Assembly: GCA_029432815.1 (NCBI GenBank)
Contig: JAROBA010000042.1
Location: 1 to 44,928, forward strand
Direction: 5' to 3'
Length of the DNA stretch: 44,928 bases
Source: Pontiellaceae bacterium B1224
Lineage (GTDB): Bacteria; Verrucomicrobiota; Kiritimatiellia; Kiritimatiellales; Pontiellaceae
Shown one piece after another: positions 1-44,011 of this stretch (position 1 is the stretch's first letter; every line of letters starts with the position of its first letter). The position numbers were made by a program, and so were the translations under genes. The notes under the pieces were generated by a model, which had not been told where the DNA came from, did not search any database, and saw only the letters and a program-made list of their open reading frames with translations.

Positions 1-201
1 GGTGTTGATGCATACGCTGAATATACCGGTCTCTCCTCAAGTGGCGGCGTGCTGACATTCACCGTATCTGATTACGCTGATGATGATCTCGCTTCAATTT
101 CACAGATGTCGCTCGCCGCTGTTCCGGAGCCGGCAACGTTGGGGTTGGTAACCGCATTCGGTGGAGCAGTTCTGTTTATCCGCCGTCGGATGATGATGTA
201 A
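1..201 (+). CDS. C-terminal end of a PEP-CTERM-sorted surface protein (5' partial)
   Basis: Frame 1 is open from the window edge to a TAA at 199-201, giving the last 66 residues of a larger protein. The tail has the classic tripartite PEP-CTERM signal: VPEPATLG, a hydrophobic segment (about 14 residues) and a basic end, IRRRMMM. In known systems this signal targets exported proteins to an exosortase, which cleaves and anchors or releases them at the cell surface. The part before the signal is polar and acidic and gives no recognisable domain. The gene ends just before a palindrome and a strong terminator, so it belongs to a transcript that starts outside the window. The sorting call is strong; the function of the protein cannot be judged. 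Confidence 0.85.
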   Translation, partial: GVDAYAEYTGLSSSGGVLTFTVSDYADDDLASISQMSLAAVPEPATLGLVTAFGGAVLFIRRRMMM

Positions 202-211
202 TTATTCAGTG

Positions 212-226
212 TTCCAATATTTGGAA
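212..226. repeat. TTCCAR-N3-YTGGAA palindrome, intergenic
   Basis: TTCCAATATTTGGAA. It lies 10 bp after the PEP-CTERM stop and 3 bp before the terminator stem. Confidence 0.8.
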
Positions 227-229
227 AAG

Positions 230-256
230 ACGTCCCGAAGTATCGGGACGTTTTTT
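230..256 (+). terminator. Intrinsic terminator after the PEP-CTERM gene
   Basis: A perfect 9-bp stem, ACGTCCCGA (230-238) with TCGGGACGT (243-251), a 4-nt loop, and a T tract running from the end of the 3' arm to 256. It ends the transcript that enters from the left edge. Confidence 0.88.
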
Positions 257-658: not shown

Positions 659-713
659 TACATATTTTTTTAAATTTAGTATATTTATGGGTTTAGCCGA
701 AAAGGAATACAGT

Positions 714-3700
714 ATGAGAAGGATTGTTTTAAGTTTGATCATGGGGTTTGCCGGATCTATGGGCGCAATAGCGGCCGATTTGCCGGTTGCGGATTCCGGA
801 ACGTTTTTTGAAGTCAACGGCCGGCAACAGGTGAATGAAGACCTGGTCCGTTTCGGCAACCACAGAAACGCTCCAATTGAATTTATGGGGTACGCTATCT
901 TTGACCTGTCAGGAAAGAGCGGCAAGGTTGCAGAGGGTGGCATTTCCCTGTCCGGCGACCTGAAGGTTTTTCAAGGAAAGCCTGCCGGGTTGGTGGTCGA
1001 GTTTCTGGGAACCTTCGGCGATGGAGACCTTAACGTAACAAGCGGTGGGGAATGGAGCGCTACGGAGGCGGTGGTGAGCCAGTCCGTCACTCCGACGGGA
1101 AACCGCTTCACCGTTCAAATGGGACTTCCGGCGGATGAACTCGTCAGTCGTTATGCCGTGTTTCGTTTCAGAAACGAACAGCCCGCATCGCAATGGGATC
1201 TCTCCTCTCCCATGCTGAGCCTGGCGGAGGACGCGGCAGAGGCGGCGGAGCCGTCAGGGAAGCCGATGGAGACGGCCGAGTTGTATGCCGAAATGGTTCC
1301 GGCCGAAAAAGAGCTCGATCCGGATTGGGTGGCATCGTTGACCGAACGCGGCCATCCGCTGGATGCCGCGATCCGTGGCTCCAAGGCGGAGGATTCACTC
1401 AAATATATCGGTATGCCCGTCGGCGGGATCGCTTGTGGTTCCCTGATTATGGATGGGGCCGGGCAGCTGTATGCGTGGGATATTTTCGGTGCGCAACCGA
1501 AGGGGATTATTTATCAGGATGTGGAACTTCCGGAAGGGTATGTAGGATTTAAAAACGGATTACGAAAGACCATCCGCATTCATGACGGCGCAAACTTTAT
1601 GAACCCGCCGACGGTTGAAAAATTCCCGCCGCCGGTGAAAAGCGGGTTTTCCCTGAAGCTCAATGGCGGTTCGGAACTGGCGATGAATTCCAAAGATTGG
1701 AAAACCGTTGAGTTTGCGGGGCAGTGGCCGATGGGTACGGTGAATTATACCGATCCCGGGGCGCCGGTCAGCGTGGAGCTGAAAGCGTATTCGCCGTTTA
1801 TTCCTCTGAATGTCGGGGACTCCAAACTGCCGGTCACGATCATGGCCTTTACCCTCACCAATGATGCTGAAAAACCGGTGTCGGTCGACTTCGGTGGCTG
1901 GCTGGGGCTCCCGGACCGTAAGGCGCAGCTGAAGCGGGAAACATATGACGACGCCACCGGGTTCACGCTGCAGGTTCCAAAGGCTGGAAAACAGAAGGCC
2001 GGGTCGATGGGGCTGACCGTTATGGGTGATGCTGAACCTATCGTGAAAGAGGGAGCCAATGGGCTGCGTGTGGCACTGAAACTGGCACCGGGAGAGAGTA
2101 AAACCGTTCCTTTTCTGATTTCCTGGCACTTCGGGCACGATGCGTACTCACTGAAATTTAAGAATGCGGCTGAAGTCAGTGCGTATGTGGTGGACGCTTT
2201 CGAGGCATTGTCTTCGCAGACCGAGCTGTGGGTTGATACGTGGAATGACACGAGCCTGCCGCAGTGGTTTATGGATCGGGCCATGGCGCCGGCGAGCACG
2301 ATGCAGACGGCCAATCTTCAGTTTGCCGGAGATCGACTGTGGGGCTGGGAGGGAATCGGCGCCGGATCGGGCACCTGCACACACGTTTGGGCCTATGCTC
2401 AGGCGATGGCCCGACTTTTCCCGTCATTGGAGCGCAACCTTCGCGAGGTGACGGATTTCGGGCTCTATCAGATGCCCGACGGCGGGGTTCCGTTCCGGCC
2501 TTCGAAGGACAAGACCAAGGTGGCGATCGATGGGCAGTGCGGCACGGTGCTGCGCTCGTATCGCGAGCATTTGATGTCGGCAAATGATGAATTTCTGGAA
2601 CGCAACTGGCCGTCGATTAAACAGGCGGTCAACTACCTGATCGAGTTCGATGAAAACGACGATGCCTTTGACGGCCTGCTCGACGGCGAGCAGCACAACA
2701 CGCTCGATGCCGAGTGGTACGGCAAGGTGCACGTGCTCTGCTCGCTCTACCTCGCGGCCCTGCGTGCCGGCGAAGAGATGGCTGCTGAAATGGGCGATAC
2801 GGCCTTTGAGAAGCGCTGCCGCGACACCTATGAGATGGGCCGCAAAAATATCGAGCAGCTCTACAACGGTGAATACTACGTGCAGATCGAAGATCCAAAC
2901 CATGCCGATGCGATCGGCGTCGGGCCCGGGGTTTACATCGATCAGGTCTACGGTCAGTTCTGGGCCAACCAGGTCGGGCTGGGACGGCTCTATAACGAGG
3001 AGCATATACAGTCGGCCTTGAATGCGATCTGGAAATATAATTATGTTCCCGATATCGGTTCGTTCCGCAAGGTTTTCAAGCGTGGCCGTTTTTATGCCTG
3101 GGAAGGCGACGGGGGCCTGCTGATGAGCACCTGGCCCAACGGCGGCATTACCGAGGTGCGGCGTCAGTTTTGGACCTATGGCTATTTCAACGAATGCATG
3201 AGCGGGTTCGAGCATCAGGTGGCCGCCCACATGATTGCGGAGCCCGACCCGGAACTGCGCATCAAAGGGCTGGCGATCATGCGCACGATCCACGACCGCT
3301 ACGCGCCGGCCAAACGCAATCCCTATAACGAAATCGAGTTTTCCGATTTCTATGCCCGCGCCATGGCCTCGTACGGCAGTTTCCTGGCCGCCTGCGGATT
3401 TGAATATAACGGCCCGGCCGGCATGATCGGCTTCGATCCGGTCATACATCCATCAACTTTCCGCGCACCGTTCACTGCGGCCGAAGGATGGGGTACCTTC
3501 AGCCAGACCGTTGGTGAAAAAGAGATGATGGCCGAGCTCAGCGTGAACTGGGGGAAACTGAAGCTTCAGACGATTCGTCTCAATCCGGAGGGGCTGAATG
3601 CCCAAACGGCAAACGTGACGGTTGACGGAAATAAACTCGGCGCCAAGCTGGTGAAGACTGAAAGCGGCGTCTCGGTTAAACTCGAAAATCCGGTCTCCGT

Positions 3701-3737
3701 TTCTGCCGGGCAGTCGCTGGTGGTGGTACTTCGCTAA
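714..3737 (+). CDS. Secreted GH116-type beta-glycosidase (DUF608 family) with extra N-terminal domain
   Basis: Encodes 1007 residues. The start at 714 is chosen over an in-frame ATG at 648 because AAAGGAA (701-707) precedes it and because it opens directly into a signal peptide ending near GAIAAD. Residues about 25-180 form a beta-rich extra domain absent from the next gene, possibly carbohydrate-binding. The remainder matches the GH116/glucosylceramidase-like family (beta-glucosidases and beta-xylosidases, inverting the usual reading of neither linkage nor substrate): conserved stretches are GTCTHVWAYAQAMARLFP and DGEQHNTLD. By family analogy E546 (in WGWEG) would be the nucleophile and D665 (in HNTLD) the acid/base; this is inferred without an alignment. 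It is the first gene of the glycan locus, 22 bp before its paralogue, so co-transcription is likely. It probably acts in the periplasm or at the cell surface. The substrate is unknown. Confidence 0.85.
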   Translation: MRRIVLSLIMGFAGSMGAIAADLPVADSGTFFEVNGRQQVNEDLVRFGNHRNAPIEFMGYAIFDLSGKSGKVAEGGISLSGDLKVFQGKPAGLVVEFLGTFGDGDLNVTSGGEWSATEAVVSQSVTPTGNRFTVQMGLPADELVSRYAVFRFRNEQPASQWDLSSPMLSLAEDAAEAAEPSGKPMETAELYAEMVPAEKELDPDWVASLTERGHPLDAAIRGSKAEDSLKYIGMPVGGIACGSLIMDGAGQLYAWDIFGAQPKGIIYQDVELPEGYVGFKNGLRKTIRIHDGANFMNPPTVEKFPPPVKSGFSLKLNGGSELAMNSKDWKTVEFAGQWPMGTVNYTDPGAPVSVELKAYSPFIPLNVGDSKLPVTIMAFTLTNDAEKPVSVDFGGWLGLPDRKAQLKRETYDDATGFTLQVPKAGKQKAGSMGLTVMGDAEPIVKEGANGLRVALKLAPGESKTVPFLISWHFGHDAYSLKFKNAAEVSAYVVDAFEALSSQTELWVDTWNDTSLPQWFMDRAMAPASTMQTANLQFAGDRLWGWEGIGAGSGTCTHVWAYAQAMARLFPSLERNLREVTDFGLYQMPDGGVPFRPSKDKTKVAIDGQCGTVLRSYREHLMSANDEFLERNWPSIKQAVNYLIEFDENDDAFDGLLDGEQHNTLDAEWYGKVHVLCSLYLAALRAGEEMAAEMGDTAFEKRCRDTYEMGRKNIEQLYNGEYYVQIEDPNHADAIGVGPGVYIDQVYGQFWANQVGLGRLYNEEHIQSALNAIWKYNYVPDIGSFRKVFKRGRFYAWEGDGGLLMSTWPNGGITEVRRQFWTYGYFNECMSGFEHQVAAHMIAEPDPELRIKGLAIMRTIHDRYAPAKRNPYNEIEFSDFYARAMASYGSFLAACGFEYNGPAGMIGFDPVIHPSTFRAPFTAAEGWGTFSQTVGEKEMMAELSVNWGKLKLQTIRLNPEGLNAQTANVTVDGNKLGAKLVKTESGVSVKLENPVSVSAGQSLVVVLR
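1688..1702. repeat. TTCCAR-N3-YTGGAA palindrome inside GH116-1
   Basis: TTCCAAAGATTGGAA, read in the SxxWK frame (NSKDWKT). Confidence 0.65.
1975..1989. repeat. TTCCAR-N3-YTGGAA palindrome inside GH116-1
   Basis: TTCCAAAGGCTGGAA, read in the PxxGK frame (VPKAGKQ). Confidence 0.65.
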
Positions 3738-3759: not shown

Positions 3760-6387
3760 ATGAAGAAATCTATATACTGCATTTTATGGGGAATATGCCT
3801 TGTGACTGTTGCGTCACTGGCAGAGGACCCGGTGATGCTTTATCGGGAAACCATACCGGTTGATAAACAGCTCGATCCTGCCTGGGTTGCATCGCTGACG
3901 GAACGTGGGCACGCTTTGGATATTGGGATTTCAGGGTCGAAAAAAGACGATACGCTGAAGTATATCGGCATGCCGGTGGGCGGCATTGCCTGCGGCACGG
4001 TCTATCTGAATGGTGATGGCCGTCTCTATGTCTGGGACCTCTGGAGCGATGGACATATCGGCGTCGTGCAGCAAACCGTTCCGATTCCCGATGGTTTTCC
4101 CGCCTGGCGTAAGCGGAAAGATGTACCGGTACATGGTGGCGCCAATTATTTAAAACCACCGACCATCGATGCCTTTCCACCGGCTTTTTCACAGGGATTC
4201 GGTCTTCGAATCTCGGATGGATCCTTGAAAATATTTGAGGCTGCGGATTGGGAAGCGGTGGAATTTGCAGGTAGCTGGCCGATCGGAACGGTTTCCTATA
4301 AGGATTCCAGGAGTGCGGTGCAGGCAACGTTGACGGCCTATTCACCGTTTGTTCCGTTGAATCTGCAGGATTCATCGATTCCGGTGACGGTCATGAGTTA
4401 TACGCTGACCAACACGTCGGATGAACCGGTGACCGCGGAACTGATCGGCTGGCTGGAGAATATGAGCAACCAGCCGGATGCCGAGAAAGCCGGTTCGTTT
4501 TCGAGTAAGTCGGGTTTAACTGTGTTAAGCCATGATTGTGCAATGATGGCGCAGATGAAACGGGAAGGTACGTTTGATCACAGCGGAACGATGGCTTTGT
4601 CGTATCTCGGCACTGGGCAGGAAACGGCGCTTGAGCAGGTTCCCGGGATTGCCGCTGATGTGGTATTGAAGCCGGGTGAAAGCCGCGAGTATACCTTTTT
4701 GATTTCATGGAATTTCCCGGTGGTCCGTATAAAGGACAGCTATAAGCCGAAAACCATTCCTCATAAAAACGAATACTCGGCCCGCTTCAAGGATGCGACG
4801 GCTGTGGCGGAGCATGTAGCTGAATATTTTGACCGCCTGTCGTCGCAGACCAAACTTTGGGTGAACACCTGGAATGACTCCACGCTGCCGCAGTGGCTGC
4901 TGGACCGGACGATTGTAACGGCTGATACCTTGCAGACGGCCAACTGTAATCTTCTGGCCGATGGAGCCGGCGGCCAGTTCTGGGCGTGGGAAGGCATCCG
5001 GGTTTGCCACGGCACCTGCACGCATGTCTGGCACTATGCGCAGGCGATGGCGCGCCTGTTCCCGGAGCTCGAACGCAACCTGAGGGAAAAGACCGATTAT
5101 GGGTTTGCGCAGCAACCCAACGGTGTAGTGCCGTATCGCGGTACGCTCGAAGCGGGTGAAGGCGGCGGTATTGCCATTGATGGGCAGGCCGGAACCGTGC
5201 TGCGTTCCTATCGCGAGCATCTGACAAGCGTAGATGACACCTTCCTGAAAACCTACTGGCCGAACATTAAGCTGGCGCTCGAATATCTGATCGACTTCGA
5301 CCGCAACGATGGCGACTTTGACGGCCTGCTGCACGGGAAACAGCATAACACGCTCGATGCCTCCTGGTACGGAAAGGTGCATGCGCTCAGTTCGCTCTAT
5401 ATTGCTTCACTTCGCGCCGGCGAGGAAATGGCCAGCGTGGTGGGCGATACTGAATTTGAAGCCCAGTGCCTTGCGCTTTACCGAAAAGGCAGTCAGAACA
5501 TCGAGCAACTCTACAACGGCGAATATTTTATTCAGGAAGAAGACCCGAATCATCCGGAAGCTATCGGCGTCGGCACCGGGGTTTACATCGATCAGGTGAT
5601 CGGACAGTTCTGGGCCAATCAGCTGGGGCTTGGTCGACTGTATAATGAGGAGCATATTCAATCGGCGCTGAATACGCTGTGGAAATATAACTTTGTTCCA
5701 GACGTTGGAAGTTTCCGCGAAACCTTCCGTAAAGGCCGGTTCTATGCCTGGGACGACGACGCGGGGCTCATCATGTGCTCCTGGCCGAACGGCGGGGTGA
5801 AAGATGATTTTATGAATCACTGGCAGTATGACTATTTCAATGAATGCATGACCGGCTTTGAATATCAGGCCGCCGCGCACATGGTAGCCGAAGGAACACC
5901 AGAGCTCGTTACGCAGGGACTTGCCGTCACTCGGGCGATTCATGATCGCTATGCACCGGCAAAGCGCAATCCCTATAACGAGATCGAGTGCTCAGATCAT
6001 TATGCCCGCGCCATGGCATCCTACGCCGTATTCCTTGCGGCCTGCGGATTTGAATATGACGGCCCTGCCGGTCTGATCGGTTTTGATCCAATCATCCACC
6101 CAGAAAATTTCCGTGCACCGTTCACTGCCGCCGAAGGGTGGGGGACCTTCAGCCAGACCTTGAGTGAAAAGGAAATGCGGGCAGAGCTCGCCGTGAAGTG
6201 GGGCAGCGTCAAGCTACAGACGATTCGCCTGAATCCGCTGGGTTTGAATTTTAAGACGGTTAACGTGACGGTCGGTGGCAAGAAACTGAACGCCAAGCTG
6301 GTGTCGCATGAAAACGGTATCTCAGTTGAATTCGCTCAGCCGGTTTCCATTACCTCTGATCAGACGTTGACGGTTGCGCTTCGCTAA
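3760..6387 (+). CDS. Secreted GH116-type beta-glycosidase (DUF608 family), second paralogue
   Basis: Encodes 875 residues with a signal peptide (MKKSIYCILWGICLVTVASLAE) and a start preceded by GGATAAGG. From about residue 25 onward it aligns throughout with the catalytic part of the preceding gene: LDPAWVASLTERGH, KYIGMPVGGIACG, GTCTHVWHYAQAMARLFP, GKQHNTLDASWYGK and RYAPAKRNPYNEIE are shared or nearly so. The pair is clearly a tandem duplication; this copy lacks the extra N-terminal domain. The catalytic candidates are kept (Glu in WAWEG, Asp in HNTLD). The two copies differ most around residues 220-330, consistent with a change in substrate detail. Expected to release a beta-linked glucose, xylose or related sugar; the exact specificity cannot be read from sequence. 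Confidence 0.85.
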   Translation: MKKSIYCILWGICLVTVASLAEDPVMLYRETIPVDKQLDPAWVASLTERGHALDIGISGSKKDDTLKYIGMPVGGIACGTVYLNGDGRLYVWDLWSDGHIGVVQQTVPIPDGFPAWRKRKDVPVHGGANYLKPPTIDAFPPAFSQGFGLRISDGSLKIFEAADWEAVEFAGSWPIGTVSYKDSRSAVQATLTAYSPFVPLNLQDSSIPVTVMSYTLTNTSDEPVTAELIGWLENMSNQPDAEKAGSFSSKSGLTVLSHDCAMMAQMKREGTFDHSGTMALSYLGTGQETALEQVPGIAADVVLKPGESREYTFLISWNFPVVRIKDSYKPKTIPHKNEYSARFKDATAVAEHVAEYFDRLSSQTKLWVNTWNDSTLPQWLLDRTIVTADTLQTANCNLLADGAGGQFWAWEGIRVCHGTCTHVWHYAQAMARLFPELERNLREKTDYGFAQQPNGVVPYRGTLEAGEGGGIAIDGQAGTVLRSYREHLTSVDDTFLKTYWPNIKLALEYLIDFDRNDGDFDGLLHGKQHNTLDASWYGKVHALSSLYIASLRAGEEMASVVGDTEFEAQCLALYRKGSQNIEQLYNGEYFIQEEDPNHPEAIGVGTGVYIDQVIGQFWANQLGLGRLYNEEHIQSALNTLWKYNFVPDVGSFRETFRKGRFYAWDDDAGLIMCSWPNGGVKDDFMNHWQYDYFNECMTGFEYQAAAHMVAEGTPELVTQGLAVTRAIHDRYAPAKRNPYNEIECSDHYARAMASYAVFLAACGFEYDGPAGLIGFDPIIHPENFRAPFTAAEGWGTFSQTLSEKEMRAELAVKWGSVKLQTIRLNPLGLNFKTVNVTVGGKKLNAKLVSHENGISVEFAQPVSITSDQTLTVALR
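5696..5710. repeat. TTCCAR-N3-YTGGAA palindrome inside GH116-2
   Basis: TTCCAGACGTTGGAA, read in the PxxGx frame (VPDVGSF). The paralogue encodes VPDIGSF at the same place without the palindrome, so this copy may have arisen by point change rather than by insertion. Confidence 0.6.
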
Positions 6388-8047: not shown

Positions 8048-10510
8048 ATGAGCTGCATTGGGTTTAAATGTTTTTTTTGTATTTCTCTCGTCTCGGCAAC
8101 GGTTGCGCTGGCTAATGAACGCTATGTGTTGCAGTACGATTCCCCGGCTATAAACAGCTTTCCGAAGAAAGGGCTTGGTTACATCCAGACGGCACTGCCG
8201 CTTGGGAACGGCCGCTTGGGGGCAATGTTTTCCGGTGGTATCGATACCGAGCATTTGGTGGTCAACGATATTACGCTCTGGATGAATGCCAAGCGCGGGA
8301 TGGATGAGGAGGCGCAGTCGGGAACGCGCAGCGTTGCTCCTGCAGATTTTCAGACCGTTCGTCAGGCCTACCGAGACGGTAAATACGGCACGAAGAAGGA
8401 CAGCATGGAAAGTCTGTCCACGGAATATCTTAGCAGCACCGAACCGCTGGGTAACTATGCGCCGTTCACCGATGTTTTTATTTCCACCGGACACGATCCG
8501 GCGTCGGTCCGCGACTACCGCCGCTCGCTCGATTCGCGCACGGGGCTGGGAACCGTCAGCTATTCGATCGGAAACGGAACCTTTAAACGCGAATTTTTCT
8601 GCAGCTATCCGCACGATGTGGTGGCCGCCCGCTATACAGCCAAAGGAGCAACCCTCAACCTGACCGTGAAAACCACGACGCAGCACAAGGTGTCGGCGCT
8701 GAAGGCGGCGGGCAACCGGATCATCCTGACCGGCGAAACAAAAATGGTTCAGAACAATGTCGAGTTTATGCAGGCGGTGCAGATCGATGCAAAAGACGGG
8801 AACGTGGTTGCACAGGCAGACGGCTCGGTAAACATCACGGGGGCTACCGATGTGACGATCATTCTGGCGGGCTATTGCGATTATCTGCCGGTCTATCCTT
8901 CGTTCAAAGGGCGCGACTATAAAAAGGACAGTTTCCAAACATTGGAAAAAGCAACCGCGGTGAGCTACGGAATGCTGAAAAAAACGCATGTGGACGATTT
9001 CTCGGCGTTGATGAAGCGCTGCCAACTGGAGCTGGATTTTAAACCGTCCGGATTGACCACCGATAAACTGGTGGTCGGCAACGGCAGTCTGGAACTGGAA
9101 AATCTATACTTCAACTACAGCCGCTATCTGCAGCTGAGCTGTTCGCGCGGTGCTCCGGTTCCTTCCAATCTTCAGGGACTGTGGAACGAGTCACTCAAGC
9201 CCGCGTGGAACTGCGACTATCACACCGACATCAATGTGGAGATGAATTATTGGATGACGGATCCCGCCAACCTGTCGGAATCGTTTCGTCCCTTTGTGGA
9301 ATGGATGAAGGTGCTGGCGGAATCGGGTGCATACACTGCCCGCGAAACCTACGGAATTTCCAAGGGTTGGAGCATGGGACTCAACGGGAATGTCTTCGGG
9401 TTCACCGCTCAGAATGTGCATGGCCGGCGCGCCCAGCAGGCTGGGCACTGGCTTTGTCAGAATCTGTACGATCACTATGCGTTCAATCAGGATCGGGCCT
9501 ATCTCGAAGAGATCTATCCCATCCTGAAAGGTGCCGCTGAATTCTTCGTGGAGTTTCTCGATCCGTGGAAAGACGGCACGCTCGTGGTCTATCCCACCTG
9601 GTCGCCGGAAAATGCGTATCTGGTAAAGGAGTACGGTAAATTAAACAAGCAGGCCTATGGTGCGTCATGGGACCAGCAGCTGGTGCTGAACCTTTTCACC
9701 GACTGCATCGAGGCTTCCACGATTCTGGGGTGCGACGAGGACTTCCGTAAATCGCTTCAGAATATGATTCCAAATCTCTGTCCCCAGAAGATCGGGCAGC
9801 ACGGTCAGTTGCAGGAGTGGCCGGAAGACTGGGACAACCCGAAGGATACGCACCGCCACATCTCGCACCTGATCGCCTTGCATCCGGGCCGCGATATCTC
9901 GCCGCTTACCACGAAGGAACTCTATGAAGCCTCCCTCGTAACCATGCAGCACCGGGGCGACGCATCCACCGGTTGGAGCACGGGATGGAAAACCTGTTTC
10001 TGGGCACGGCTTCACGATGGAGATCATGCACATAAAATCTACCAATTTCTCACCTCCAAGCGGGCCTATCCAAACCTGTTCGATTTTCATCCGCCATTCC
10101 AGATCGATGGCAATTTCGGTGGCACTGCCGGTGTCTGCGAAATGCTGTTGCAGAGCCAGCTCCGCAGTGTGAATTCGAATGCACAGACGATTGAAGAGGC
10201 GGCGTTTGTGGCGTATGTGCAGGATGCGGAAAATCCGAAACAGTTTGTGCCGGTGGTGCCGGATGCCAGCCTGGCCGAAGCCCCGTATATTCTGCATTTG
10301 CTTCCCGCGCTCCCGTCGGCCTGGCCGAATGGTAAAATCAACGGACTCAAAGCACGCGGCGGTTTTGAGGTTGATCTGGAATGGAAAAACGGAAAGCTTT
10401 TGCAGGCAACTATTCGCGCAAACCGCGATGGAAAATTCCGGGTCTACGCGAACGGTAAACTTAGCGAAGTCATAACTCTGAAAAGAGGGGAATTCAGAGT
10501 CTGGAAATAG
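8048..10510 (+). CDS. Secreted GH95-type alpha-L-fucosidase/galactosidase
   Basis: Encodes 820 residues with an N-terminal signal peptide (ending near VALANE); AGAGGTG precedes the ATG. GH95 hallmarks in order: [16 protein letters not shown] and NDITLW in the N-terminal beta-sandwich, [35 protein letters not shown] (E521, candidate acid), [19 protein letters not shown] and [20 protein letters not shown] (D687). The family uses an inverting mechanism in which two Asn and an Asp hold the attacking water. Here the first Asn position appears to be Asp (D394-I-N396) if the usual NINxxMNYW motif is aligned, which may matter for specificity. Located directly after the sulfatase, it probably removes alpha-L-fucose (or alpha-L-galactose) from a desulfated glycan. 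Confidence 0.9.
8933..8947. repeat. TTCCAR-N3-YTGGAA palindrome inside GH95
   Basis: TTCCAAACATTGGAA, read in the FQxLE frame (SFQTLEK). The same 15-mer recurs at 17424 and 26885. Confidence 0.75.
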
Positions 10511-10671: not shown

Positions 10672-12114
10672 ATGAGCGAAGAACTGTCCGGAAACGAATA
10701 CCGTCAACAGCGTATTGAAAATATGAACAAGCTTGAAGAGGCTGGTTTTCCAGCCTTTGGAAAAGCATTCGAGCGCACCGACAGCCTCGATAAACTGCAT
10801 GCCGATTTCGAAGTAGACAAAATAGTCAAGGCCTGTGGTCGGATTGTGGCGATTCGTAAAATGGGCAAGATGGCGTTTGCTCATATTTCCGACGGCACCT
10901 GCAAATTTCAGCTCATGGTGAAAAAAGACCTGATCGGTGACGATAATTTCGAAGCGTTCAAATTGCTCGACCTGGGTGATATTGTTGGAGTCGAAGGTGA
11001 AATGTTCATAACCCGCACCGAAGAAGAGACCGTGCGGGTCAGCAGCTGGACCCTGCTTTCGAAAGCATTGCTCCCATTGCCGGAAAAATTCCACGGCCTT
11101 ACGGACAAAGAAACGCGCTATCGCCAGCGCTCGCTCGACCTGATCTCGAATCCGGAAGTAATGGATATTTTCAAGAAGCGTACGCAGGTGATGCGCGAGA
11201 TTCGGTCATTCCTGGACGGCCGCGGCTACAATGAGGTCGAGACCCCGATGCTGCAGCAGATTGCGGGCGGGGCGGCGGCTAAGCCGTTTATGGCCCACTA
11301 CAATGCATTGAATGTGGATGTCTTCATGCGTATTGCGCCGGAGCTCTATCTGAAACGTCTGATTGTCGGCGGCATGGACCGCGTGTACGAAATGAACCGG
11401 AACTTCCGTAACGAAGGGCTCGACCGTACGCACAACCCGGAATTTACCTGTCTGGAAATCTATCAGGCCTATGGCGACATGCGTACGATGCAGGAGTTGA
11501 TTCAGTCGATGTTCACGCATCTGGCCGAAACCATCTTCGGAAAAATGGAATTCGAGTGGATGGGCAACACCATCAACCTGCAGACACCGTGGCGCGAAGT
11601 TCCGTATCACGATTTGGTGAAAGAGCACCTCGGTGCTGATTGGTTCGATAAAACGTTGGACGAGGCCAAGGCTAAAGCCGCGGAGCTGGAAGTCCATATT
11701 GAAGAGGGCGCCGATTTTAAACAGGTGACCCACGAAATTTACGACAAGACCATCGAAGGAACGCTGATCCAGCCGACCTTCATTACGCGTCTGCCGGCCG
11801 AGCTCGTTCCGCTGGCGAACCCGTGTGCCGACAATCCCGAGCTGGTGGATGTGTTTGAGCTGATTATCGGCGGTAAGGAAATTGCTCCGGCATACAGCGA
11901 GCTGAACGATCCGATTGAACAGCGCAAGCGCTTCGAAGAGCAGGCGGCCGGCGATGGCTCGAAGATTGATGAGGATTTTCTCTCGGCGCTCGAATACGGC
12001 ATGCCTCCGACCGGCGGCATGGGCATCGGCATCGACCGTCTGCTGATGCTGCTGACCGGTTCCGATGCGATCCGCGATGTGATCCTGTTTCCGCAGCTCA
12101 AACCGCGCGGATAA
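10672..12114 (+). CDS. lysS: Lysyl-tRNA synthetase, class II
   Basis: Encodes 480 residues, a usual length for bacterial LysS. The start at 10672 is set by AGGAG (10661-10665). An N-terminal OB-fold anticodon-binding domain (about residues 50-150, AFAHISDGTCKFQLMVKKD) is followed by the class II catalytic core: motif 1 near RGYNEVETPML, motif 2 FRNEGLDRTHNPEFT and motif 3 GGMGIGIDRLLMLLTG. It charges tRNA-Lys in the cytoplasm. It sits alone, with its own candidate promoter and a terminator shared with the converging korB gene. Nothing unusual is seen in the active-site motifs. Confidence 0.97.
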   Translation: MSEELSGNEYRQQRIENMNKLEEAGFPAFGKAFERTDSLDKLHADFEVDKIVKACGRIVAIRKMGKMAFAHISDGTCKFQLMVKKDLIGDDNFEAFKLLDLGDIVGVEGEMFITRTEEETVRVSSWTLLSKALLPLPEKFHGLTDKETRYRQRSLDLISNPEVMDIFKKRTQVMREIRSFLDGRGYNEVETPMLQQIAGGAAAKPFMAHYNALNVDVFMRIAPELYLKRLIVGGMDRVYEMNRNFRNEGLDRTHNPEFTCLEIYQAYGDMRTMQELIQSMFTHLAETIFGKMEFEWMGNTINLQTPWREVPYHDLVKEHLGADWFDKTLDEAKAKAAELEVHIEEGADFKQVTHEIYDKTIEGTLIQPTFITRLPAELVPLANPCADNPELVDVFELIIGGKEIAPAYSELNDPIEQRKRFEEQAAGDGSKIDEDFLSALEYGMPPTGGMGIGIDRLLMLLTGSDAIRDVILFPQLKPRG

Positions 12115-12117
12115 ATT

Positions 12118-12132
12118 TTCCAAACGCTGGAA
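12118..12132. repeat. TTCCAR-N3-YTGGAA palindrome after lysS
   Basis: TTCCAAACGCTGGAA, 3 bp after the lysS stop and 5 bp before the shared terminator stem. A one-mismatch copy, TTCCAATGGTTGGGA (12176-12190), lies on the other side of the terminator, directly touching the korB stop codon. Confidence 0.8.
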
Positions 12133-12137
12133 ATAAG

Positions 12138-12170
12138 AAAAAGGCTGCTCCGAGAAGGGCAGCCTTTTTT
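12138..12170. terminator. Bidirectional intrinsic terminator between lysS and korB
   Basis: AAAAAGGCTGC (12138-12148) pairs with GCAGCCTTTTT (12159-12169), followed by T. The A run on the left and T run on the right make it work in both directions for the two converging transcripts. Confidence 0.88.
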
Positions 12171-12190
12171 ATTGGTTCCAATGGTTGGGA

Positions 12191-13243
12191 CTATCGATGC
12201 AGATTATTCAGTTCTTCAAGTGATGCGGCGCCGGGGCAGAGTTCTTTGGTGCCGAGGTCGCGTAAGGGTCGCTTCGCGGTATTCATGGTTTCATGGATTT
12301 CCTGCGAATGTTCATCCATGAACAGAATGCCGGTGACGACTTTATCCTGCGCTTTGTATTCCTGTACCAGCTTAAGGGCAGAACGCCGGCTGTGGATGTC
12401 GTGCTTCATTTCCAGCTTGTGGAGATTGATGATAGAGCCGTCGTGCATCGTGACTTTCTCGTCCGTACCTTCTTCAAATTCCGCCGTGATCTCTTCCGCA
12501 AACGGAACGTAGTCGACCGTGTTGGTGGAAGCCATGTGCTGACGGATATAGTCGTAGGCTTTGGTGGATCCCGGGACGTTATTGAATGTTACGCAGGGGG
12601 AAATGACATTGATGAAAGCAAAACCTTTATGGGCGATCGCCGCCTGAATGATCGGCACCAGCTGATCCTTGTCGCCGGAAAAACTGTTGGCCACAAAGGT
12701 GGCGCCCAGCTGCAGGGCAATCGAGCAGAGGTCGATCGGCTCCAATGCATTGGGTTCACCTTTTTTGGAGGTGGAACCGATATCGGTCGTTGCCGAGTCC
12801 TGTCCTTTGGTCAGTCCGTAGACGCCGTTGTTCTCGCAGATGTAGACCATGTTGACGTTGCGGCGCACGGCGTGCACAAACTGGCCCATACCGATGGAGG
12901 CGGTGTCGCCATCACCGGATACGCCGATATAAAGTAAATCCCGGTTGGCCATATTGGCGCCGGTGGCGACGGAGGGCATGCGGCCGTGCACGGAGTTGAA
13001 TCCATGGGAGTTGCCCAGGAAGTAGGTCGGCGTTTTAGACGAGCATCCAATGCCTGAAAGCTTGGCGACACGATGCGGGGGAATCGACATCTCAAAGACA
13101 GCATCGATGATGGCCGCACTGATGGAATCGTGGCCGCAACCGGCGCAGAGAGTGGACACCGCGCCTTCATAATCTTTAGAGGTATAGCCCAGATCATTTT
13201 TAGGCAGGTTCGGGTGGCGGAAAGTTGGTATTTTATAGCTCAT
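12191..13243 (-). CDS. korB: 2-oxoacid:ferredoxin oxidoreductase, beta (TPP-binding) subunit
   Basis: Encodes 350 residues. It carries CAGCGH near residue 33 (C33, C36), a third Cys in GIGCSSK and a fourth in ISPCVTF, which together match the [4Fe-4S] ligands of the beta subunit. GVSGDGDTASIGMGQ and NNGVYGLTKGQ form the thiamine diphosphate/Mg site. The enzyme class oxidatively decarboxylates a 2-oxoacid to an acyl-CoA and reduces ferredoxin. Size and pairing with a gamma-alpha fusion resemble 2-oxoglutarate oxidoreductase KorAB, but 2-oxoisovalerate or indolepyruvate-like substrates are not excluded. The AGGAG site overlaps the stop region of korA (9-bp gap), so the two are translated together. 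Confidence 0.85.
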   Translation of the reverse strand: MSYKIPTFRHPNLPKNDLGYTSKDYEGAVSTLCAGCGHDSISAAIIDAVFEMSIPPHRVAKLSGIGCSSKTPTYFLGNSHGFNSVHGRMPSVATGANMANRDLLYIGVSGDGDTASIGMGQFVHAVRRNVNMVYICENNGVYGLTKGQDSATTDIGSTSKKGEPNALEPIDLCSIALQLGATFVANSFSGDKDQLVPIIQAAIAHKGFAFINVISPCVTFNNVPGSTKAYDYIRQHMASTNTVDYVPFAEEITAEFEEGTDEKVTMHDGSIINLHKLEMKHDIHSRRSALKLVQEYKAQDKVVTGILFMDEHSQEIHETMNTAKRPLRDLGTKELCPGAASLEELNNLHR

Positions 13244-17423: not shown

Positions 17424-17438
17424 TTCCAAACATTGGAA
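17424..17438. repeat. TTCCAR-N3-YTGGAA palindrome upstream of mraZ (1 of 2)
   Basis: TTCCAAACATTGGAA, about 60 bp upstream of the candidate mraZ -35 box and 16 bp from the next copy. Confidence 0.8.
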
Positions 17439-17454: not shown

Positions 17455-17469
17455 TTCCAATGTCTGGAA
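17455..17469. repeat. TTCCAR-N3-YTGGAA palindrome upstream of mraZ (2 of 2)
   Basis: TTCCAATGTCTGGAA, the reverse complement of the TTCCAGACATTGGAA form seen at 31566, 32634 and 43886. Confidence 0.8.
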
Positions 17470-31137: not shown

Positions 31138-31813
31138 CTATGTGGCATCTGAGCTGGATCCGTTGATTCTGTTTGCGGATAACCATTTGCTGGCGGTGAA
31201 CAAACCGGCCGGTTTGTTGACGCAGGACAGCGGGACCGGACTGCGCAACCTCGAGGACTGGGCGCGCGAATGGGTCCGGGTTGATAAAAATAAACCCGGC
31301 GATGTTTTCCTCAATGCCGTGCATCGGATTGATAAAGTCGTCAGTGGTGTCGTGCTTTTTGCCCGTACCAGCAAGGCGCTGACGCGTTTGAATGAAGACA
31401 TTCGTAAGCGCAACTGTAAAAAGATCTATCATTGTTTGGTGGAGGGTCAGTTGAAGAAACCGGCCGATACACTGGTGCATTGGATGACCCATGAAAATCA
31501 TCGGGCCCGCATCTGCAGGGAAGGGCAGAAGGGCGCGCAGCGAGCCGTCCTGAGCTATCGAAAACTTCCAGACATTGGAAAGTTCCAATGTCTGGAAATT
31601 AATCTGGAAACCGGGCGCTATCATCAGATCCGCGCACAGCTTGCCGCCATGGGGAACCCGATTGCCGGGGATGAAAAATACGGTGCCCGGCAAAAATCTA
31701 AATCAGGTGATATCGCGCTACACAGCCGAGAACTTTACATCACACACCCGACGCTGAAAGAACCGATTAAAATTGAGGCCCCGTATCCGGCCAACTCGCC
31801 GTGGTGGTTCTAA
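31130..31813 (+). CDS. RluA-family pseudouridine synthase
   Basis: Encodes 227 residues, the short form without an S4 domain. [19 protein letters not shown] opens the catalytic domain. [20 protein letters not shown] carries the catalytic Asp (usual family form HRLDxxTSG), and [27 protein letters not shown] is the RNA-binding core, with Tyr in place of the usual Thr in GRTHQIR. It isomerises uridine to pseudouridine in rRNA or tRNA. The start overlaps the methyltransferase stop. It contains two palindromes as an inverted pair (31566-31597) just before the HQIR motif. A broken second copy of its 3' end lies 4.8 kb downstream. Confidence 0.9.
31566..31580. repeat. TTCCAR-N3-YTGGAA palindrome, left half of inverted pair in the pseudouridine synthase
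   Basis: TTCCAGACATTGGAA, read in the PxxGK frame (LPDIGKF). Confidence 0.8.
31583..31597. repeat. TTCCAR-N3-YTGGAA palindrome, right half of inverted pair
   Basis: TTCCAATGTCTGGAA, exact reverse complement of the copy 2 bp upstream; read in the FQxLE frame (KFQCLEI). Confidence 0.8.
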
Positions 31814-31824
31814 TTGCAGAGCGT

Positions 31825-34800
31825 CTATTCTGCCTGTTCAACACTCACATCGTAGAACCCTTGGTCATTCACGGAGTGCACGGTGTCGGTATAGCTGTCC
31901 TGCGGATAGGCAATGCCGGTTTTTAGATGTTGGAATTCTTCATCGAGCTGCGGTGCCCAGCGCACACCATAGATCCGATTGCTGATGGCATCCCAACTGA
32001 TGATATAATGTGAATTTTCAACGATCTGATTGGATGCCAGCGTGACGGCAAAGCGGGAGTTCGAATTTGTGGGATTTGTGCCACTGATGTATTCATCAAA
32101 GTTCGATTGCCCATCGAGATCAAAATCGTTACCGGGTTCTCCGTCGGGATTGTTTATGGAGTTGAAATAGGAAATTTCCCAGGCGTCGTCTATGCCGTCC
32201 TGATCGTTATCGACAATCGGACTTGAAGCTGCATCCGCAACACCGGGCGAGCCTCCGACCGAACTGCTCTTGCGCCAGTTGGCCACGTCGTTTCCGTAAG
32301 CAGTAAAACTGATTCGTTCAAGAGAATGTCCCGTTCCGTCTGCTTCGGTCGGCCACGGCGCAACGTCGTCATATGTGATACGATCGATGATCACATAAGG
32401 TACATCTCCCGCATATGGGCCCGTTTGCACGGGTTCGTCCGGTGCGCGGAGAGTGATGCTCTCGCCGCCATTGTCCAGTTTTCCCGTGTAGCTGAAGATC
32501 TGAATACTGGCTGGAATGCTGTAGGTGGACCGGAATGCTTCGGGTGTAATCGTATCTCGAACTAACAGCAAGACCCCGCCAGCACCGAGGGAAATGCTAT
32601 CCTCCGGGAATTGGAAGTCGATACCGCCGACTTTCCAGACATTGGAAGGATTATATATTTCGAACAGCGGCACACTGCTTTCCGATGTGTTCAGTAACTC
32701 AATATATTCGTGCCCGTTAGCAGCCGGGTTATACATAATCTCGGAAACGACGACCGGGCCGACAACAGGATCCGTATTGGCAGCCATGGGACTGAATGAT
32801 TTTAGAGAAGGGAACTGTTCCTCGCCCAGGCTGGTTACATGGCGCCCGAAGCTGATTCCGTTGTAGGCCCCCTCGAAACTGAAGCCGTGGCTGTAGCCGA
32901 GTGTTGGGGAAAACAGGTGTACCTCTTCCCCGGTTGCACTGAGAGAAAAGGCAGAACCAAATTCGTCATCGGCAAATTCCAGTATGGAGGAAACATAGTG
33001 ACCTTCATAAAAAACCTGATATCCATTGGGTTGAATAACGGTGCCGGCCGGTATGGCCCATTTCTGTGGCAAATCGTGATCATCCGTCAGATACCATCCT
33101 CCAAGGTCTACCGGCTGGCTGCCGGGATTGTACAGCTCGATTGTATCGCGCTGGGGTTCGTCGGTATGTGTGAGCACTTCGTTTACTTTCACGTTGGCGA
33201 GTCCGGGGATTGGATCGTCGGATCCCGGAGAACCGTTTGCTGTTGCCGAAGCACGCCATGCTTCAGTGATGTCCTGACTGCCCGAAGGGTTGGCGTTGGT
33301 TGGAGTCAGCGAAAATCCGTAGCCATCGGCTGGCAGGGGCCAAGGGGTGCTGTCGCCATACTCTACGGAAGTTATGACATCAAAGAAGAGGGCTTTTGCT
33401 CCTTGAGGTTCGGGGGAGAGTGATTCCTCTACATAAACAGTATTACCCTGTACCGACTGGATCGTGAAGATCCGGTTGTTGCCGTAGTGGCCGGAAAGGC
33501 TGATCTGCATTCTGTCGCCCGCACCGATTCCGGGAGGTATGCTCTGAAGGGTGACGGCCCCGATGCCTTCGCTTGTCGTTTCCATACTAAATATATCGTG
33601 ACGTATGCGTGTGCCCAAGGCCAGTTCCACCCGTTCTCCCGAGTTATCGAGCTTGCTGGCGGGGTAATCACCATCCGGTGTTATGGCAGGATAGCGCTGC
33701 GCAAAGTCCACTGGGTTTCGGGCCAGGACCGCGAAACCGCCGGGGGCGAGTGTTGCTCCGTCGGGAAAGGTGTAATTAATGCCGCGCGTAAACGTGACGC
33801 CACTGAGCGGAAGCATATTTTCTCCGGTATTCTTGATTTCCACAAACTCATATCGGTCACCTGCATATAGAAAGTCACAAGTTATGCTGCCGGAACTTTC
33901 GTCGGTCAGCGGCTCCGTCAACAGCACCTTCTTTGTTCTGGTTTGGCCGATACTTCCTTCGTAGATCACCTTTCTGATCGTGAACGTGCCATTGTTGTCA
34001 GGATTGCTTGCGCCGCTGATAACGACTTTATCCTCTCCGGTGAGGACATCGGGCAGGGTGTCGGAAAACACAAGCAACGCGCGGTTGGCGTAGCTCGGGT
34101 CGATGGACCCGGCATCACCCATAATAGACGATACGGTCGCGCCTTCCTCCATGAGTGCATCCTGTGGATGGTACATGATTTCAGTGATCTTGAGATTGCT
34201 CCAGTCCCGTTCAACGAAAAAAAGAGTCTCGTGCAACGCACTCCAGACATCGCCCTCGAGCGTACGGGCCTTGACGCAAGTGGTTTCATTAAGAGGGATG
34301 GTTGTTCCTGTTCCGGCACTGATTCCCTGGGCGGCACCTCCTTCTGCACGAGGGTCGGTTCCGTCGAGGGTGTAGTAGATGGTTCCCGCAGCACCATCGC
34401 GTTCGATGGAAAGACTGAAGCCGTTGGAAACCTCCGCGCGCGCAACGTCGATGGTGGCGCCACTGTCTTTAAAAAGCGGCGGATTGACCGCAGGATACTT
34501 ACCATCGGCAATGAGCGCTGCAATAAGCCGGTCGGCCTTGCCGATCGTTCCGGCGGCTACGGCCGCACGCGCAGATGCCCATTCATTATCTCTTGTGCGC
34601 GGGGGTTCGATTCGCTCGTCGCCCCACCTTGCTGACTCAGATATTATGGCTGTATAAATCGAATCGCACAACGTGTTCCATCGTTCAAGCACATGGTCAT
34701 CAGTCAAGGCGCCTCCATTGAAACAGGCCTTATAAGCGCGATCAGCAAAGTTTATCCGGTATTCGGCGTTGTTGTTCCACATGTTGTCGAACCCTGCGCA

Positions 34801-36246
34801 CTTGCTGAAGTTTTGCATAAATGGATCGTCGCTGCTGCGCTTGCTTCCACCGCCAAACGCATCTTCGGAATCCCAGTTGAAGAAATGAACTTGTCCGCCC
34901 GGGTTATTGCCTACTCCATAATAGTATTGGGGAAAATCTCCCACGCTCGCATAGGAATTGATCAGGCACATGTCAGCATGGTTATTGATATTGCAGTATT
35001 CGAGTAACGTGGCGAGGCTGGCGCTCTTCGATGCGGTATTCAGCCATTCATCATAGCGGTCATCAACCCCCGCAGTATCGCCGTCCTTGCCCTTCCCGCA
35101 ATAGTAGTCCTCCTCGTTACCTCCGAGATAACTGGCAGCAAAAGCATCATCCTGCCGCTCGCAAGGATTATAAAGCCCCCAATAGATGCCATTCAAATAG
35201 AGGTGAACAAACGAACCATGTCCACCAATACCGGTCATATCGATCTGCAGATCGCGAGCGAGTTGATCGCGCGTATAGACGGTGTTTAAAGCGTCGTAGT
35301 TTATTCCATAGCTTTTGTTATGACCGGCGCGGAGCACCAGTTTATCGAAGCTTTCCGCCGCGTTGTCGGCATTTAGTGGCGCGTGCTCGAAAAATGAGTA
35401 GTTCAGGCTCCCATCCTCATATTGTCGGCGGAAGCGAATGCCGAACGACTGTTTGTGGTCATAGGTTCCTTCAGTCCAGAGGCCGCCCCCTCCCTGATTC
35501 TTTATTCCGCAATCAATTTGAAAGCCCTTGAACCCGGAAAAGTACGGGGTGTCTGGATAGATCAATTCCATGGAACAGGGCATTTCCCAGCCCTCTTGCA
35601 GGTTGTCGCCGCGATGAATACCTTCGACCCCGAAGAGATCCTCGTGATTCATCACGATGGATAAAGTCGGGATAGAAAGTAGCGATTCATTTAATTCATC
35701 GGAATAAGCGGAGTCGTTTACCACATCAGGATCCATTTCTGTTGTGGTCCAGAAAACATAATCTCCGGCTGGACGAATGTCGCCCTGCGTTATGACTTCG
35801 GCTGGGAAAATGTAGGTGTGCGTATCGACATTACTCGGCAGCAATCCTTCATTGGATGCAAAAGCTCGCACCGTAACTGCGGGCGTTGCCTTCCATTTTC
35901 CGGTGGAGCTTTCCGGATCAATCAGGACCGTTACTGGATTTTCGCTGCTTATTGCTGAGGAAGACGTACGAGGATCGCTACCGTCCAGCGTATAGGTAAT
36001 TGTTGCAGCAAGTGTTTCGGATGAAATTATCAGGTTGGTCGCATCGGAATAAAACCCGCGGTCGATGCTGAATTTCGTGTCAGATACATTGCTCTGCGCA
36101 AATGCCGGGCCAGTGTTGCAGACCAATATAAAAGCAGCCGCAATCCACCATTTTAATATGCGCTGTACCCATAAGCTACGGTGCTTTATCGCAATTGTGC
36201 GTAGTGTGTGATCGGCTTTTTTTATTTTTGGTATGATATCTATCAT
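31825..36246 (-). CDS. Large secreted CotH / lamin-tail-domain protein
   Basis: Encodes 1473 residues. A long basic lead precedes a signal segment (ILKWWIAAAFILVCNTGPAFA, ending near residue 50). Domains in order: a chitobiase/Fn3-associated repeat (ITYTLDGSDPRTSSS, about 80), a CotH kinase-like region (about 190-560, with FKGFQIDCG, KQSFGIRFRRQ, LVLRAGHNKS, VHLYLNGIYWGLYN), a second TYTLDGTDP-type repeat (IYYTLDGTDPRAEGG, about 635), three lamin-tail domains (starts near KITEIMYHP, KVNEVLTHTD, VVSEIMYNP), and a C-terminal calcium-type acidic stretch (DNDQDGIDDAWEISYF). No PEP-CTERM tail. Proteins of this build are common in PVC bacteria and thought to act at the surface; whether the CotH part phosphorylates proteins here is unknown. 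It converges on the pseudouridine synthase with an 11-bp gap. Confidence 0.85.
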   Translation of the reverse strand: MIDIIPKIKKADHTLRTIAIKHRSLWVQRILKWWIAAAFILVCNTGPAFAQSNVSDTKFSIDRGFYSDATNLIISSETLAATITYTLDGSDPRTSSSAISSENPVTVLIDPESSTGKWKATPAVTVRAFASNEGLLPSNVDTHTYIFPAEVITQGDIRPAGDYVFWTTTEMDPDVVNDSAYSDELNESLLSIPTLSIVMNHEDLFGVEGIHRGDNLQEGWEMPCSMELIYPDTPYFSGFKGFQIDCGIKNQGGGGLWTEGTYDHKQSFGIRFRRQYEDGSLNYSFFEHAPLNADNAAESFDKLVLRAGHNKSYGINYDALNTVYTRDQLARDLQIDMTGIGGHGSFVHLYLNGIYWGLYNPCERQDDAFAASYLGGNEEDYYCGKGKDGDTAGVDDRYDEWLNTASKSASLATLLEYCNINNHADMCLINSYASVGDFPQYYYGVGNNPGGQVHFFNWDSEDAFGGGSKRSSDDPFMQNFSKCAGFDNMWNNNAEYRINFADRAYKACFNGGALTDDHVLERWNTLCDSIYTAIISESARWGDERIEPPRTRDNEWASARAAVAAGTIGKADRLIAALIADGKYPAVNPPLFKDSGATIDVARAEVSNGFSLSIERDGAAGTIYYTLDGTDPRAEGGAAQGISAGTGTTIPLNETTCVKARTLEGDVWSALHETLFFVERDWSNLKITEIMYHPQDALMEEGATVSSIMGDAGSIDPSYANRALLVFSDTLPDVLTGEDKVVISGASNPDNNGTFTIRKVIYEGSIGQTRTKKVLLTEPLTDESSGSITCDFLYAGDRYEFVEIKNTGENMLPLSGVTFTRGINYTFPDGATLAPGGFAVLARNPVDFAQRYPAITPDGDYPASKLDNSGERVELALGTRIRHDIFSMETTSEGIGAVTLQSIPPGIGAGDRMQISLSGHYGNNRIFTIQSVQGNTVYVEESLSPEPQGAKALFFDVITSVEYGDSTPWPLPADGYGFSLTPTNANPSGSQDITEAWRASATANGSPGSDDPIPGLANVKVNEVLTHTDEPQRDTIELYNPGSQPVDLGGWYLTDDHDLPQKWAIPAGTVIQPNGYQVFYEGHYVSSILEFADDEFGSAFSLSATGEEVHLFSPTLGYSHGFSFEGAYNGISFGRHVTSLGEEQFPSLKSFSPMAANTDPVVGPVVVSEIMYNPAANGHEYIELLNTSESSVPLFEIYNPSNVWKVGGIDFQFPEDSISLGAGGVLLLVRDTITPEAFRSTYSIPASIQIFSYTGKLDNGGESITLRAPDEPVQTGPYAGDVPYVIIDRITYDDVAPWPTEADGTGHSLERISFTAYGNDVANWRKSSSVGGSPGVADAASSPIVDNDQDGIDDAWEISYFNSINNPDGEPGNDFDLDGQSNFDEYISGTNPTNSNSRFAVTLASNQIVENSHYIISWDAISNRIYGVRWAPQLDEEFQHLKTGIAYPQDSYTDTVHSVNDQGFYDVSVEQAE
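32634..32648. repeat. TTCCAR-N3-YTGGAA palindrome inside the CotH/lamin-tail gene
   Basis: TTCCAGACATTGGAA; on the coding (minus) strand it is read as PSNVWKV, within the third lamin-tail domain. It is the last perfect copy before an 11-kb stretch without any. Confidence 0.75.
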
Positions 36247-43885: not shown

Positions 43886-43900
43886 TTCCAGACATTGGAA
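43886..43900. repeat. TTCCAR-N3-YTGGAA palindrome after trxA
   Basis: TTCCAGACATTGGAA, between the trxA stop (43880-43882) and the terminator stem that starts 2 bp later. Confidence 0.82.
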
Positions 43901-43902
43901 CG

Positions 43903-43931
43903 AAAAAGGCGCCTCCCAGGGCGCCTTTTTT
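43903..43931 (+). terminator. Intrinsic terminator after trxA
   Basis: AAGGCGCC (43906-43913) pairs with GGCGCCTT (43920-43927), loop TCCCAG, then T to 43931; the A run before the stem extends the pairing. Confidence 0.9.
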
Positions 43932-44011
43932 GTTGGGTAGCCGTGAGTTGGGTCAGCCCGTACATTGTAGCAAAATATTATCGGTACGGGTTCGCTTTCC
44001 GCCCTTCGGCC

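Follow-up and report, generated by a model that had tools for sequence, protein, structure and literature searches.

The palindrome TTCCARNSNYTGGAA, a 15-bp element recurring throughout a 44,928-nucleotide stretch of DNA from Pontiellaceae bacterium B1224 (hereafter, the window), is probably a recognition site on DNA and is not a part of a terminator. We hold with moderate confidence that it represents the genome-wide site of a putative dimeric, cooperative DNA-binding protein with an architectural or nucleoid role. The core pattern of this consensus, TTCCAN5TGGAA, has 22 exact matches in the window compared with 0.04 expected from base composition, which rules out a chance origin there, and 2,237 matches in the whole genome (5.38 Mb, 204 contigs) compared with three for the reversed control. 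The arms are invariant, about 95% of copies have C or G at the centre, and the palindrome is flanked by T before and A after. In a sample of the genome, perfect sites (510) outnumber sites with one mismatch (382), while the control pattern yields 0 and 27, respectively. With a density of 0.42 per kb, the sites are distributed along the genome in a nearly Poisson manner (variance/mean 1.2). Two hallmarks of known systems are present: the large genomic excess of uptake sequences, with perfect sites well above near-misses, and the strong over-representation of a palindrome differing between relatives, typical of HIP elements. We found no description of the palindrome, of such a motif system or of palindromes in Kiritimatiellota or Verrucomicrobia in open-access papers; publications on Pontiella isolates do not mention palindromes, and no Rfam family matched within the window.

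The following sites and terminators were located in the window:

212-226, motif TTCCAATATTTGGAA, between stop codon (201) and terminator stem (sequence and terminator scan)
225-256, + strand, intrinsic terminator after the end of a PEP-CTERM gene (terminator scans; PEP-CTERM motif by Pfam)
473-487, motif, intergenic, with no clear adjacent terminator
1688-1702, motif in gene 687-3737, frame 2
1975-1989, motif in gene 687-3737, frame 1
5696-5710, motif in gene 3802-6387, frame 1
8933-8947, motif in gene 8048-10510 (GH95-type glycoside hydrolase)
10748-10762, motif in lysS (ortholog comparison)
12118-12132, motif between lysS stop (12114) and terminator
12137-12170, + strand, intrinsic terminator of lysS (terminator scan)
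12176-12190, near-motif TTCCAATGGTTGGGA with one mismatch, beyond the lysS terminator
17424-17438, motif, first of a 31-bp-spaced pair, intergenic by gene call
17455-17469, motif, second of the 31-bp-spaced pair
31566-31580, motif, first of a 17-bp-spaced pair, in a pseudouridine synthase gene
31583-31597, motif, second of the 17-bp-spaced pair, in the same pseudouridine synthase gene
32633-32647, motif in gene 31825-36126
43886-43900, motif between trxA stop (43882) and terminator
43900-43933, + strand, intrinsic terminator of trxA

Three strong terminators lie 3' of sense genes in the window (stems 225-256, 12137-12170 and 43900-43933 in the terminator scan), and the genes ahead of them encode the end of a PEP-CTERM protein, a class II tRNA synthetase of the lysine type and a thioredoxin. 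In each of them, according to the first-pass annotation, the stop codon is separated from the stem by the palindrome. Coordinates and stops are confirmed, with stem starts shifted by a few bases because A/T pairs are counted in. It had also found no clear terminator devoid of the palindrome, and indeed the scan gives no fourth one downstream of a gene, all other candidates scoring far below the three motif-flanked terminators. A less elaborate scan over the initial 20 kb ranks no candidate above 225-256, although its laxer rules yield about as many sites there as in shuffled DNA. The lysS terminator is terminator-like on the minus strand as well, for the convergent gene 12191-13243.

An absence of motif excess next to stems genome-wide had been set in advance as the outcome that would refute the association, and the excess was found. 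The comparison was based on 1.365 Mb of the same genome (stitched), with genes called by a simple hexamer model (90% coding) and both genes and terminators coming from our own simple predictors. Among the 89 terminators whose gene-end gap measures 60 bp or more, 17 are abutted by an exact motif that ends no more than 12 bp upstream of the stem (14/86 without the window); the matched-offset rate in 424 gaps of that size lacking a terminator is 2.8% (binomial p = 4e-10). The corresponding values are 7/59 versus 2.0% for tandem gaps and 10/30 versus 5.1% for convergent gaps. With the window excluded, the motif is present anywhere in the gap in 30 of 72 gaps with a terminator and in 43 of 319 gaps without one. 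The association of motif and terminator is genuine yet partial, involving a minority of terminators, and terminator-linked copies make up about 5% of all motif copies. Given a genome-wide rate of about 20%, the three out of three in the window were a lucky sample. In another genome, G028, the abutting excess at terminators is not significant (3/40). Stop-to-stem distances are alike (medians of 22 with and 23 without the motif), so that the motif occupies the usual slot instead of extending it. A part of intrinsic terminators is expected at most terminators and mainly at terminators, whereas 73% of the sites reside in genes and about 80% of terminators have no abutting site; a terminator component as the main function was therefore rejected. 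Stems of a few terminators in G000, on contigs C44 (minus-strand 48308, 51060) and C77 (44988), are themselves made of paired or near-motif copies, as with uptake sequences in Neisseria.

Across 388 sampled genomes from the phylum, high copy numbers are confined to the class Kiritimatiellia, where they occur in many families and reach about 2,000, whereas the rest of the phylum has 0-9 copies per genome. Within one genus, copy number ranges from none to about 2,000. G096, a distant member of the phylum, has 52 reversed non-complemented control patterns and no motif. The studied organism is close to Pontiella, as its lysS is 93% identical (best segment) to that of P. sulfatireligans. Motif density is 0.33-0.56 per kb in the examined loci of three named isolates (P. 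sulfatireligans F21, Pontiellaceae B12227 and B12219), so that an assembly artefact can be ruled out as its source. Other families carry a TTTTCCAANSNTTGGAAAA-like form of the site in intergenic arrays; of 92 pairs of neighbours no more than 60 bp apart, 91 show a spacing of 22, 30, 31 or 32 bp, corresponding to two or three helical turns, and the spacers differ in sequence and are unconserved. For G050, phase coherence is R = 0.93 with a helical pitch of 10.5-10.6 bp; the values for G122 and G028 are about 0.87 and 0.93, respectively, near 10.25-10.3 bp. None of the 58 sites of G050 is fully inside a gene, arrays in its tandem gaps are closer to the stop (13 vs 2), and its divergent gaps are as motif-rich as the others. 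Arrays by secA, hypD and ligA directly follow the gene end. The variable centre is lineage-specific (GACAT-like, AGGTT-like and AGCCT/AGGCT-like in G466, G417 and G050/G100, respectively), as if the centre preference evolved while the arms stayed fixed. Phased arrays are also borne by viral contigs that encode a Mu-like terminase, portal and protease (L220:3034-3164, L221:2786-2946 and L225:650-767 in IMG/VR); those of L220 and L221 precede the gene for the large terminase subunit by a few hundred bases.

In Pontiellaceae, sites are mostly single and many are genic, namely 420 of the 573 in the genome sample (73%; 0.34/kb), occupying all three frames, with 144 in spacers (1.07/kb). Helical phasing is weak there (R about 0.33, p about 0.003). 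Pairs spaced by 17 bp, which is not a whole number of turns, occur seven times in the sampled genome, and the pair at 31566-31597 has exactly reverse-complementary centres (GACAT/ATGTC). Motif density is maximal in the first 10 nt past stops, and convergent spacers are the richest (2.9/kb vs 1.0 in divergent gaps). Together with the stop-proximal tandem arrays, this bears out the proposal of the first-pass annotation that the element is preferentially kept at gene ends. Its other proposal, that the element acts there through RNA processing, antitermination or a roadblock, does not suit the bulk of sites, considering the genic majority, the many terminators with no abutting site, the 11 of 89 that have the motif just downstream of the stem and the lack of RNA-level selection. 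A roadblock or insulator, in which a protein bound at operon ends halts read-through, separates convergent transcription and backs up intrinsic terminators, would account for the excess at terminators, the rich convergent gaps, the arrays lying nearer the stop than the start and the few intrinsic terminators predicted in the small gene-based samples of G050 (9 per 123 genes) and G122 (2 per 72). Nevertheless, we consider it unlikely, because most sites in this genome are genic, the divergent gaps of G050 are equally rich, and stems are flanked both upstream (17) and downstream (11), an upstream block being of no help to termination. Far less credible still is an RNA element at 3' ends, with the transcribed palindrome folding into a small hairpin or being processed ahead of the terminator. 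Its position in the transcript between stop and stem and a possible 6-bp hairpin with a 3-nt loop would be compatible with this role, but wobble pairs show no bias towards the sense strand, G..T being about as frequent as A..C (76 vs 83 in coding and 10 vs 7 in 3' non-coding sequence) and positions 5 and 9 do not covary, for which reasons an RNA hairpin is disfavoured. The genic location of three quarters of the sites, the helical phasing and the lack of an Rfam match in the window point in the same direction.

The few cases that could be aligned suggest that copies arose by point substitution, genic sites being free of indels among these orthologs. The lysS site (FPAFGK) is perfect in motif-rich relatives and substituted, without indels, in motif-poor ones, and one site in L108 was created via an amino-acid change from FGKME to FQKLE. 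The site at the lysS terminator is retained with another centre in B12227, has one mismatch in B12219 and is mostly absent from the remaining relatives. Substitution-made genic copies, one of them altering a protein, are in line with a DNA uptake signal, where the competence machinery would prefer the motif and biased transformation (molecular drive) would spread copies into tolerant DNA, terminator flanks included. The roughly even density, the strong copy variation in one genus (0-2,000) and the presence of ComEC also agree with it, and USS occur in 17-29% of Pasteurellaceae terminators (PMC1852404), close to the 19% observed here. Yet a palindromic core and helically phased arrays have not been described for uptake signals, none of the 58 sites of G050 lies fully within a gene, ComEC is encoded by 57 of 60 genomes irrespective of their motif content, and the motif adjoins the stem, whereas USS make it up. 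We regard an uptake signal as rather improbable, although uptake signals offer the closest genomic picture (PMC1852404, PMC1939737), into which phased palindromic arrays do not fit. The resemblance drawn in the first-pass annotation is apt for density and spread by substitution and suits less well the palindromic core, the phased arrays and the exclusion from coding sequence in a related family.

The copies might alternatively be HIP-like remnants of a bias in methylation or repair, or REP-type elements propagated by a Y1 transposase, in either case without site-specific architecture. Cyanobacterial HIP1 is also a palindrome, present at 1-2 per kb and gained and lost by lineage (PMC4390886), and Y1 transposases are common in these genomes. 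However, no known HIP resembles this bipartite, degenerate target of 15 bp. We know of no methyltransferase with such target specificity. As for REP, Y1_Tnp is encoded in most motif-rich and most motif-poor genomes (35/40 in all), so that its presence does not track the motif across these 40 genomes, and there is neither a conserved linker nor an insertion signature, genic copies having arisen by substitution. This origin is accordingly very improbable.

Invariant arms around a permissive centre, spacing by whole turns and spacers of differing sequence argue for a DNA-bound dimeric protein and not for an RNA structure. According to the preferred reading, a sequence-specific, probably dimeric protein of Kiritimatiellia would recognise TTCCARNSNYTGGAA, and adjacent dimers, sitting on one helix face two or three turns apart, would build phased arrays. 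Its role may be architectural or nucleoid, as in Lrp-type arrays or dispersed anchoring sites. Point substitution and selection would create and keep copies, mostly in tolerant non-coding DNA off promoters, and in Pontiellaceae the slot of about 20 nt from stop to terminator would be the best tolerant one at an operon end, giving rise to the stop-palindrome-terminator pattern. Lrp-type regulators bind sites two or three helical turns apart (PMC2995911), a spacing that the motif arrays share. Lrp itself was rejected as the binder despite the fitting spacing, because the single ortholog is present in 30/30 motif-rich and 26/30 motif-poor genomes, and thus does not track the motif, and the lrp gene has no array. 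The single and genic sites, weak phasing and common 17-bp spacing in Pontiellaceae speak against the architectural reading, as does terminator adjacency (19% vs 2.8%) exceeding plain tolerance of non-coding DNA. Tentatively, one could go further and envisage a class-wide chromatin system, in which one sequence-specific protein on hundreds to thousands of phased spacer sites would organise the chromosome and insulate transcription units, its sites being carried on Mu-like phages as well; we view this as possible, though doubtful.

A site that reaches about 2,000 copies in a genome, is confined to one class and is arranged in whole-turn arrays implies a major putative DNA-binding system. The outcome would be either a new nucleoid or insulator system or an uptake signal in a group other than Neisseria and Pasteurellaceae, and the terminator pattern is accounted for without invoking a new kind of terminator. 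The motif comes from a marine bacterium and is directly testable in cultured Pontiella.

Several known systems resemble the one described here in part. DNA uptake sequences (Neisseria DUS and Pasteurellaceae USS) likewise number about 1,000-2,000 short copies per genome, are enriched in non-coding DNA and at terminators while also being genic, as the motif is in Pontiellaceae, spread by substitution and are lineage-specific. The motif differs from them in its palindromic core, in its phased arrays, in sitting beside and not within the stem, and in its absence from genes in a related family. With cyanobacterial HIP1 it shares genome-wide over-representation of a palindrome gained and lost between relatives, but it is a 15-bp bipartite site with a degenerate centre, lower density, helically spaced arrays and no known methyltransferase link. 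Operator arrays of the Lrp/FFRP type are similarly composed of short odd palindromes with a variable centre, two or three turns apart (PMC2995911), whereas the motif has thousands of class-wide sites at gene ends instead of promoters, and the only Lrp ortholog does not track it. REP/REPIN elements with RAYT transposases are palindromic, intergenic, clustered and located at 3' ends of genes, as is the motif, which in contrast has no conserved linker, is phased, includes genic copies made by substitution and is uncorrelated with Y1 transposases. Finally, matS and NBS are short palindromes scattered over the chromosome and bound by a dimeric protein (MatP and Noc, respectively), with 20-100 sites and no known phased arrays; the dispersed short palindromes are common to both, while the motif has about 2,000 sites, phased arrays and a putative binder.
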